Part shown: positions 234 through 27,968 of the stretch, in pieces | Position numbering within the stretch: position 1 is the first letter of the stretch | Layout: each line of letters starts with the position of its first letter | Virus record (IMG/VR): IMGVR_UViG_3300009177_000095 | Coordinates: 1 to 29,289 of that record | DNA: 29,289 nucleotides | Direction: 5' to 3' (one strand) | Source of the DNA: a virus | The notes under the pieces: generated by a model | What the model was told of the DNA's origin: nothing | Database searches by the model: none | The model's input: only the letters and a program-made list of their open reading frames with translations | Program-made: the position numbers and the translations under genes

Positions 234-285
234 GGGCCGCGTGGTTGCTTCAGTTTTTGAAGTAGCCACGCGGCCCTTTTGTTTT
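234..285 (+). terminator. strong rightward rho-independent terminator carrying a YTTCA-N5-TGAAR core
   Basis: An 11-bp stem GGGCCGCGTGG (234-244) pairs with CCACGCGGCCC (266-276) and is followed by TTTTGTTTT (277-285). Inside the loop a second stem CTTCA/TGAAG (248-262) forms after a TTG/TAG internal loop. The T-tract lies on the plus strand, so it ends rightward transcripts entering from the left. The leftward operon stops at 284, immediately before the hairpin, but lacks a U-tract on that side. The inner stem is also one of the seven copies of the dispersed palindrome. Confidence 0.85.
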
Positions 286-2548
286 ACTCGCGGGTGGTAG
301 TGCCCACGTACGCTGGAGGCAGCGTGGTCGTTGGAGGCGACGTCGTGGTGGGGGACTGGACACCGACGGCACGGGCCATTCCCGCTGCGCCAGCATCCGT
401 GAGTTCCTTCTGCCGGCGGGCGATCTCGTCGGGAGCGAGGAGCCCGTACTTGCGGAGGAGCTCCTCGGGACTGAGGCCGACCTCGTTCAAGGCCCGCACG
501 GCGAGACGGGTGGTGTACTTCGGGGCATAGCCCTTGGCCACGTTCTCAGCGGCCTTGAGCATGAACCTTGAGGCCGTCTTGCTGGACAGGATCTTGTTGA
601 CGACTTCGGGGGCGAACATCGTGATGGCCAGGGTGCCGACGCCGGCGAAGCCAGTCTGGGTGTAGTTCGCGAGGCCGAGGAGATTCGCCAGGCTGGTGGT
701 CAGGGTGCCGTAGGTCATGACACGGCCCCATGACAGCGCCTGGCTGGTCGACGCCGCTGTGTCGTCGATGAGATTCATGACCTTGGTGTACTTGCGGAGG
801 TTGTCCCCGTACTCGCGGCCGAGCGTGGCGTTGAGGAATTCCTTCGTGTAGCCAGCGTCCCACTGGCCCAGAATCTTGGGGAGCTTCTTGGGATTGATGA
901 CTTCCCCCATATCGACAGCCCCAGAGATCGCCGAGTTCTTGATGTGGCCACGAACAGAGTCTATGATCTGTTGGCCGTTGGGTGTGTCCTTGACGGCTAT
1001 CTCCAGGCGCTTGAGGGACTGGGCATCCCCGAGGTCGATGATCGTGTCTGCGAACTCCTTGGCCACGGGTTCGACCTGGTGGAACAGCCCGTGGACGTAT
1101 GCACTCTTGTACTGCTTGGAGTAGATCTCGTTGTCCGCGTCGGACCATTTGCGGTACATCTGCCGGGGCACGGAAGGGAGGCCCTTCTCTGTGGCCTGGT
1201 CAAGTCGCTCGATGTACCATGCTGCGAGCTTGCGCTCCTTGTCGTTGGCGTCGAGGTTCTGAGCGATCTCGTTGAGGCTGTTCCGAATCACTTGGCCCTG
1301 CCCGAACGTGGAGCCCGTGTTGAGCTGGTTGATCAGCTTGGTTGCCGCACTGTCTGGGTTGCGGCGGTTCGCGAGGTTCTTGAGCTTGGAGTAGTCGATC
1401 TGCTGCGCAACCGTGAGCGCTTTGGGATTCAGTTGCAGGCTCGAGTTGTTCCAGATGTTCATCTCGATGCCGTGCATTGCTTCGTCCCGCGCGGCGGTCA
1501 GGAGCTTGAACTCGTCATTCAAGGCCCCGTGGATGGCACGGCCCAGCTCTTCTCGAGGAAGCACGTCGGCGTACTTGATGCCCAGGTCCTCGATCAACGA
1601 GGCGCGAGCCAAGATCGAACGGTTCGTGTTGTACAGCGCGTCGGGTGTGAGTGCCGACGTGGCCATCACTCCCTCGAACTTGCGGAAGGTGGAGTTTGGG
1701 ATCTTGGACGGAAGGAGTCCGTTGGTGACCGCGACATTGCGGGCCGTGCGAGGATCGAGTCCTTCTTCCTCGAGGTTCTTGACTACCCAGGACTTGTCGA
1801 GCTCTGTCTCCGCAGACGTGAACAGCCGGTAGGGGCTGTACCACTTGCGGGTGTCCTCCATGATCGGGTGTTGGGCGATCGACTCGTAGACCTCGCGAAG
1901 GCGCCGGCCGTGCTCCTTCATCCACTCCGCGCTCTCGGTAGTCATGAACCGACGCCAGGGAGCAAGGCGAGTCATGACAGAGCCGATGCCCTGACTCCAG
2001 GTCTCGTTATACGCCTCCTCCATGCCCGCGGCGGAAGCCCCGTGAACCCAGTCGTCGAAGCTGTCAGGGGCGCCTGGCAGGCCCAGACCCTTGCGGGCTG
2101 CGTCGAGTGTCAGCGATGTACCTGCACCGCCAAGGCCAGCACCCAAGATCGCGGCTCCGGTATAGACAGCGGCTCCGAGAGGTGGGCTGATGGCAGTAGC
2201 CGCAGCAGCTGTCTCTGCAGCCAGAGACTGTGCTCCTATAGACCCTGCTATTGGTCCAGCGATCCGGGCTGTGCTTTCGAGCACGTTCTGGGTTGTGGAG
2301 GCAGACGGTGGAACTGCCGGCGGGGGCGGAACTGCTACGTCAGGTCCTTGGTCTGGGAAAGCTCCCCCGGCAGCCATTGGCTTGGGCTGTGCCGCCTCCG
2401 TGACCTGAGCCTTCTTTGCTTCGAGCTTGGCGAGGTCCTCTTGCTGCTCCTTCTCGAGATCAGCCAGCGTTTTCTCGAACAGGCCTTGCTCGAACTTGCT
2501 CAGCTTTTTGGGCGGCTGAGTTGGGTCTTGGGTCGCAAGGTCAGGCAT
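284..2548 (-). CDS. large internal virion / ejection-type protein
   Basis: Protein of 754 residues, last gene of the leftward operon. The N-terminus (about 1-55) is charged and predicted coiled coil. A Pro/Ala-rich linker follows, then a long Ala/Gly-rich hydrophobic stretch at about 90-150 that could insert in a membrane. A largely helical charged body follows, with another Gly/Ala/Leu-rich hydrophobic stretch around 620-680 and a Thr/Pro-rich tail. Two hydrophobic stretches in a long helical protein at the end of a podovirus late operon, after other helical virion proteins, fit an ejected core protein such as T7 gp15/gp16 or P22 gp16/gp20; this is inferred from position and composition, as I see no recognised motif. 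No transglycosylase signature was found. The start is supported by GAGGG upstream of ATG. Confidence 0.6.
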   Translation of the reverse strand: MPDLATQDPTQPPKKLSKFEQGLFEKTLADLEKEQQEDLAKLEAKKAQVTEAAQPKPMAAGGAFPDQGPDVAVPPPPAVPPSASTTQNVLESTARIAGPIAGSIGAQSLAAETAAAATAISPPLGAAVYTGAAILGAGLGGAGTSLTLDAARKGLGLPGAPDSFDDWVHGASAAGMEEAYNETWSQGIGSVMTRLAPWRRFMTTESAEWMKEHGRRLREVYESIAQHPIMEDTRKWYSPYRLFTSAETELDKSWVVKNLEEEGLDPRTARNVAVTNGLLPSKIPNSTFRKFEGVMATSALTPDALYNTNRSILARASLIEDLGIKYADVLPREELGRAIHGALNDEFKLLTAARDEAMHGIEMNIWNNSSLQLNPKALTVAQQIDYSKLKNLANRRNPDSAATKLINQLNTGSTFGQGQVIRNSLNEIAQNLDANDKERKLAAWYIERLDQATEKGLPSVPRQMYRKWSDADNEIYSKQYKSAYVHGLFHQVEPVAKEFADTIIDLGDAQSLKRLEIAVKDTPNGQQIIDSVRGHIKNSAISGAVDMGEVINPKKLPKILGQWDAGYTKEFLNATLGREYGDNLRKYTKVMNLIDDTAASTSQALSWGRVMTYGTLTTSLANLLGLANYTQTGFAGVGTLAITMFAPEVVNKILSSKTASRFMLKAAENVAKGYAPKYTTRLAVRALNEVGLSPEELLRKYGLLAPDEIARRQKELTDAGAAGMARAVGVQSPTTTSPPTTTLPPAYVGTTTRE

Positions 2549-2554
2549 AGTCCC

Positions 2555-27302: not shown

Positions 27303-27319
27303 TTGGCATGGTATCTGCA
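27303..27319 (+). promoter_or_regulatory. sigma54-like (-24/-12) element for the rightward gene
   Basis: TTGGCATG-GTAT-CTGCA with GG and GC ten bases apart, 67 bases upstream of the ATG at 27387. Compare TTGGCACG-ACTT-CTGCA before the leftward operon: the two agree at all but one of the conserved bases. Confidence 0.4.
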
Positions 27320-27386
27320 TACCCATAAGGACAGGCATGGTTCTTACACCTGTAGCCATGCTACCTAACAACCAAGGAGGACGTAC

Positions 27387-27968
27387 ATGGCGTTGTTCCA
27401 GTATCGTACTGTGAGGCGTATCAACACCTCATACTACACAAGACTCGTCGAGAACCTATCAACACTAGGTATCCCCGAGTCTACCCTGCCAGCCCAGTTC
27501 CCACGCTTGCACTGGACTGGTCACAAGCACTGGATTGAGAGGCACTATCCTCACTTGTTCGTGTGTACTCGGTGTCATATCCCGAGGGATGCCAAGACTG
27601 GTCGTCACCCCACCAAGAGCTTGTGCCATAGCTGTGCCGCGGTCTACAAGCACAACCCACGCTACCTCACTGACCTCGACCTCGGAGACGACGAGATGTC
27701 AGAGATGGCAGACGAGAGGTGGGAACAGACCAAGGTCCCGGGGCCAGCTCTCAGCCCAGAGGTACTCGAGAGCTTGCAGAGGCAGGTAGATGCCAAGCTT
27801 GGTAACACGAGTACACAGAGGCCCACTCCAACCGTAGACGATATCATGGCGAAGATCCGTAGGAAGCAGGAGAAGAAAGCTCTCATTGAATCAGTGGCAG
27901 AGCCAGCCCCCGATGAAAGCCCCGTGGTCGTTTCAAATAATGAAGGAGCCAGAAAGGAACCAGCTTAG
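27387..27968 (+). CDS. zinc-ribbon protein, first rightward gene
   Basis: Protein of 193 residues with AAGGAGGACGTAC-ATG, a near-ideal SD. It has a four-Cys zinc ribbon (VCTRCHIPRDAKTGRHPTKSLCHSC, about 58-82: CxxC-x15-CxxC). Before it is an N-terminal basic region with regular aromatic residues (YRTVRRINTSYYTRLVENL, and WTGHKHWIERHYPH). The C-terminal half is acidic and probably disordered. Likely binds nucleic acid; possibly an early phage regulator. Its 3' end contains the YTTCA-N5-TGAAR site at 27931, and a new promoter follows, so it is probably a separate unit. No family is recognised. Confidence 0.65.
   Translation: MALFQYRTVRRINTSYYTRLVENLSTLGIPESTLPAQFPRLHWTGHKHWIERHYPHLFVCTRCHIPRDAKTGRHPTKSLCHSCAAVYKHNPRYLTDLDLGDDEMSEMADERWEQTKVPGPALSPEVLESLQRQVDAKLGNTSTQRPTPTVDDIMAKIRRKQEKKALIESVAEPAPDESPVVVSNNEGARKEPA
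27931..27945. promoter_or_regulatory. YTTCA-N5-TGAAR palindrome in the 3' end of the zinc-ribbon gene
   Basis: TTTCA-AATAA-TGAAG, the only copy inside a coding region, 69 bases upstream of the -35 of the rightward promoter at 28015. Its location suggests it acts on that promoter rather than on the protein. Confidence 0.5.

Follow-up and report, generated by a model that had tools for sequence, protein, structure and literature searches.

Genes and palindromes of the window

The DNA analysed here (the window) is a 29.3-kb virus record, part of a podovirus genome, with genes for a terminase, a portal-like protein, a major head protein and further virion proteins on the minus strand. Terminase, head-gene and alignment searches retrieved about 20 close relatives with terminase identities of 70–100%, and deeper ones, among which G029 and G031 have terminases only 47–48% identical. 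Direct terminal repeats in three main-clade genomes (G003, G012 and G014) indicate that these look complete. No close relative was found in a phage collection, where the best terminase was 39% identical, and a prophage search for the host returned a single, uninformative MAG match (terminase 27% identical). The PF00940 profile, which bears on the idea of a phage single-subunit RNA polymerase promoter, had no match, but its control was equally silent. In L028, one protein (15206–17518, minus strand; G003 35106–37418) fuses a uracil-DNA glycosylase domain to a family A DNA polymerase, and it also carries a 3'-5' exonuclease.

An earlier note on this DNA had listed seven copies of the palindrome YTTCA-N5-TGAAR and no others, and an exact scan of the window agrees, returning those at 248, 8986, 22110, 25762, 25840, 26811 and 27931 alone. 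Dinucleotide shuffles held a mean of 0.04 copies and a maximum of 1, and 0 of 100 reached seven; a scan tolerating one mismatch picks up two further, weak places. The placement described in the note also stands, given that six of the seven centres are noncoding in a window that is 12.6% noncoding, and that the seventh lies inside the 3' end of an open reading frame, before a weak sigma-70-like match from 28015 (9 of 12 positions). According to the note, most centres fit A-N-A-A-Y on the minus strand; four of the seven do, so that "most" was an overstatement.

The first site, CTTCAGTTTTTGAAG (248–262), lies at the end of the late operon, where G003, G014, G012 and G022 have a site at the same junction, and forms the loop-proximal part of a long hairpin (227–283, arms 227–252 and 258–283). 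The second, TTTCAGTTTTTGAAA (8986–9000), occupies the gap at a conserved junction between f22 (9004–9612, minus strand) and the virion gene f29 (7315–8976, minus strand), 10 bp ahead of the f29 start. The third, TTTCAATTCTTGAAG (22110–22124), is 12 bp upstream of the terminase start (20557–22098, minus strand), a position that is kept in most main-clade relatives. Two sites precede the predicted late sigma-54 start: TTTCAATTAGTGAAA (25762–25776) is centred at −76, exactly as its counterpart in G003, and TTTCATAGTTTGAAA (25840–25854), whose flanks are the weakest, at −154. Between them, an extra half-site was read directly at 25794–25807 (plus strand), with TGAAAC at 25796–25801. The sixth site, CTTCAGTTATTGAAG (26811–26825), falls in the divergent early/late region and is centred at −512 relative to the start of the early sigma-54 promoter. 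The last, TTTCAAATAATGAAG (27931–27945), is in the 3' end of f17 (27387–27968, plus strand), the first early gene, which encodes a protein of 193 aa with conserved cysteine pairs and was found only in the main clade. Five relatives (G008, G011, G013, G017 and G021) have an in-gene copy, sometimes looser, near the same 3' end.

The divergent region holds two further repeats. A 30-nt inverted repeat (26909–26938 and 27071–27100; 90% complementary, with TTGACC) surrounds an AT-rich stretch and possibly represents facing promoters or an origin, and degenerate 12-nt tandem repeats of the TGCTCCGGCTCC type lie at 26584–26688.

Conservation, spacing and turnover of the sites

The same sites occur in about 20 relatives, the deep G029 and G031 included. 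Exact sites with a gap of 5 were found in 13 of the first 21 records, whereas G012, G014, G015 and G016 have identical arms with a gap of 6; G029 and G031 carry 5 and 6 copies, respectively, at gap 5. Exact sites appear at gap 5 or 6, while ten other gaps average 0–0.4 per genome, and palindromes scored with a position weight matrix give a single gap peak in each genome. A profile of 92 half-sites reads T-TGAARC-N4-A-S, which extends the palindrome to about 29 bp. The G011/G013/G017 group also tolerates G/C at the outer arm base, and in G029 and G031 the arm is TTTCA and the flanks differ. Phages with 29–38% terminase identity (G034–G037) do not have the site set: three of the four contain no exact site, and G037 has one, in a gene. 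On the terminase tree, gap 6 is clustered and needs two changes, a number as low as this being reached in 0 of 500 shuffles. A single origin of gap 6 was rejected, given these two changes and a gap-5 long-branch row that nests inside.

Placement is conserved as well. In nine genomes with a noncoding fraction of 12–18%, 42 of the 48 exact-site centres are noncoding. The junctions that recur are the divergent early/late region, the vicinity of the late promoter, the position upstream of the terminase, the gap between f22 and f29, the junction after the major head (capsid) gene, the end of the late operon and the vicinity of the f17 3' end. Such conserved placement, which agrees with the check in relatives that the earlier note had proposed, gives good support to the idea that these are dispersed operators at control points. 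Sites and junction gaps are gained and lost together; after the head gene, site-bearing genomes have a gap in which the site lies, and in those without a site the genes nearly abut. Between f22 and f29, the site of gap-6 genomes is built from the coding end of f22 (CGTTTCAGATAATTGAAG), and that of gap-5 genomes from bases about 13 nt further on. From a comparison of these sequences, the site at this junction seems to have arisen twice, separately in gap-5 and gap-6 genomes, and such repeated gain is good evidence that selection favours a site at this place.

Many of the sites adjoin start codons, and long hairpins are formed by about a dozen, that at 248 included, which raises the question of whether the element works at the RNA level, as a hairpin between cistrons that serves mRNA processing, translation control or antitermination. 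When all sites are pooled, their flanks pair more than permuted ones, as expected of a stem, but this reflects differences between genomes: permutation of the right flanks inside single genomes leaves co-variation at the outer arm base alone, and this base is itself unpaired in about a quarter of the sites. Most sites have little stem past the arms, flank pairing without the long hairpins is at the level of chance (z=0.25), and arm changes at orthologous positions are one-sided and uncompensated. A search of Rfam gave no match. Since the flanks do not co-vary within genomes, the sites are DNA elements and not RNA hairpins; the within-genome permutation led us to reject the hairpin, and we regard any RNA role as very improbable. 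The pattern fits two half-sites of a DNA-bound dimer instead of an RNA stem.

The two halves of the DNA element differ slightly, AG being commoner as the outer base of the downstream half (p=0.009, with orthologous copies that are not independent). Beyond 30 nt from a start codon, this AG/AC bias is gone, so strong directionality was dropped for sites away from starts. On these two grounds, the bias being confined to starts and the copies non-independent, the element is treated as functionally symmetric, and most of the bias is put down to start-codon context.

The earlier note had likened the set to the stoperators of mycobacteriophages. In Cluster A phages (L5, TipsytheTRex), these are also present in many copies throughout the genome, in promoter regions and short gaps (PMC9283540). 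However, a stoperator is an asymmetric 13-mer whose orientation follows transcription, and the lysogeny repressor that binds it is a monomer (PMC9283540), while the sites described here are palindromic half-sites at a single fixed gap, and their weak bias in orientation disappears away from starts. Stoperator phages are temperate, with an immunity repressor and integration or partition genes; here, a profile search for the tyrosine integrase family PF00589 found none in 10 relatives, a ParB N-terminal domain is present, and no ParA was identified among the families scanned. Membership of the stoperator class, for palindromes of about 29 bp, is thus unsupported. The start-associated sequences (SAS) of Cluster K mycobacteriophages are asymmetric 13-mers at translation starts, accompanied by ESAS with inverted repeats (PMC3203893). 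They resemble the present sites in lying beside start codons and in being conserved at the same genes (PMC3203893), but here a start-codon location holds for the terminase and f29 sites only, the others being at operon ends, far upstream of promoters or inside a gene end.

Sigma-54 promoters and the sites upstream of them

Sigma-54-type promoters lie at the head of the late operon (TGGCACGACTTCTGCA, 25704–25719, minus strand) and of the early operon, ahead of f17 (TGGCATGGTATCTGCA, 27304–27319, plus strand). Most genomes have GG-N10-GC promoters resembling TGGCAC-N5-TTGCA upstream of f14, f17 and f26, which head the late operon, the early operon and the replication module, respectively. In 481 kb, 37 strong matches were counted where 2.2 were expected; in most genomes they are found chiefly at operon heads, and they are aligned across genomes. 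The sigma-54 activator domain PF00158 was detected in none of 15 genomes, all 14 controls being positive, and without a phage-encoded activator domain a host activator would be needed.

This arrangement suggests a serious rival to a phage-encoded binder, namely that the palindromes are enhancer sites for the host enhancer-binding protein required at the phage sigma-54 promoters. Palindromes do lie upstream of some promoters of each class, with centres at −40 to −154 from the late start in some genomes, at −334 to −512 from the early start in eight genomes, and at −512 to −606 from the replication start, and five-base arms with N5 are, in general terms, reminiscent of NtrC sites. Nevertheless, many sites are remote, lying within the late operon (at the terminase, after the capsid gene, in the tail region) or at its end, two at the replication promoter are downstream of the start (+22 and +24), exact sites are missing from the vicinity of the late promoter in seven genomes, and G026 has three sigma-54 promoters without the site set. 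Hence we consider the enhancer explanation unlikely, while giving it serious weight.

A conserved element, GGGACCCGCAGGGTACCCC, lies about 100–200 bp upstream of the late sigma-54 promoter (window about 25855–25905, minus strand) and is found upstream of f14 in most relatives. It is possibly an activator site or an attenuator.

Candidate binders and the regulatory role of the sites

The natural candidate of the earlier note was the RHH-like protein of 88 aa encoded at 26051–26317 (minus strand). The gene sits in the divergent control region and is directly followed by its own strong terminator (26033–26008, minus strand), which makes its transcript separate from the late operon; a hairpin with a T-run also follows the counterpart gene in relatives. 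The strand-helix-helix pattern seen in its sequence stands, and profile comparison links f67 weakly to f60 and f53, the families of its positional counterparts. As a binder, however, it is a poor candidate: the family is limited to part of the motif-bearing genomes, with no homologue detected in G029 (5 sites) or G031 (6 sites), a profile search of the PDB gave no RHH match, and its model (pLDDT 72) had no fold match. It therefore appears improbable that the sites are bound by this protein, or by f60 or f53 in its position, as a repressor. Other small RHH-like proteins are encoded in different places of deep relatives (G029 18478–18777, minus strand; G026 about 4829–5050, plus strand), and may or may not replace that of the window.

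Two other families were rejected. The zinc protein f17 was not detected in G029 or G031, which carry sites. Most motif-bearing genomes encode the f39 protein (zinc and winged-helix-like), but the putative recognition helix of this protein varies, making it unsuited to a site whose core is invariant.

The leading candidate, a lead and not proof, is f32, predicted from its sequence to combine a ParB N-terminal domain, a helix-turn-helix and an N6/N4 DNA methyltransferase. It is absent from the window, which is a genome fragment, but tests for the ParB N-terminal domain were positive in 10 of 10 near-complete genomes with the motif and negative in the four distant phages (G034–G037) that do not have the site set. 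Other replication genes are distributed in the same way, so that this co-occurrence lacks specificity. Both domains in the N-terminal 219 aa of f32 are covered by Foldseek matches to ParB-parS, Noc-NBS and KorB structures (best E=1.5e-6, probability 1.00), from a model with a mean pLDDT of 66 and with low TM-scores. The recognition-helix stretch, GSIS[MQ]DL, is invariant save for M/Q in the motif-bearing genomes surveyed, and differs in G026 (TSLSMDL), a partial genome of 30.7 kb in which f32 is present and the one exact gap-6 match is in a gene and probably due to chance.

The half-site of parS is TGAAAC, equal to the TGAARC half-site described here. The arms thus agree with TGTTTCACGTGAAACA, but parS has a gap of 2, in place of 5 or 6, which counts against f32. 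In ParB-parS and at the KorB operators of plasmid RK2, palindromic operators are bound by a dimer of the ParB family (PMC11790492); f32 likewise has a ParB-like DNA-binding domain, except that a methyltransferase replaces ParB's own C-terminal domain. Fusions of ParB-CTPase and N6_N4-methyltransferase, the same combination of domains, are frequent in phages and have been suggested to act in anti-defence or in the phage-host relationship; they are not known from that survey to have an operator set or role (PMC12704722).

As the palindromes are dispersed and every near-complete relative that was tested encodes a ParB-like protein, the sites might also serve segregation, packaging or genome organisation and take no direct part in transcription. 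Against this, the PF00589 search of 10 relatives found no integrase, no ParA was identified among the families scanned, and placement tracks gene boundaries and operon heads, so this alternative is judged quite improbable. The set behaves like dispersed operators, yet it misses the defining features of stoperators and SAS and the spacing of parS.

Taken together, the sites are probably genome-wide switches for a regulator. The explanation that we favour, as plausible but tentative, is that they are operators of about 29 bp through which one dimeric protein, with f32 as the leading candidate, controls transcription. One sequence-specific protein would bind each palindrome symmetrically, as a dimer, at operon heads, internal gene boundaries and the end of the late operon, the three operons starting at putative sigma-54 promoters. 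Transcriptional control would be the likeliest action, the bound protein affecting initiation near promoters and hindering or partitioning elongation at internal boundaries and operon ends. In this scheme f32 would use the palindromes as parS-like or KorB-operator-like sites. A broader proposal, which we consider possible but doubtful, is that these uncultured soil podoviruses express the whole genome from host sigma-54 promoters, with control exerted by a ParB-like clamp fused to a DNA methyltransferase, which would load at dispersed operators whose gap, 5 or 6 bp, is clade-specific. Among the papers searched, none described a lytic phage with such a dependence on an alternative sigma factor and an activator of its host.

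Our results indicate a conserved, testable operator code in a phage family that has no close relative in the phage collection, and point to DNA that the ParB-methyltransferase fusions of phages may target. Moreover, as a sigma-54 promoter heads each of the three operons, these phages may depend on an alternative sigma factor of the host and on a host activator.
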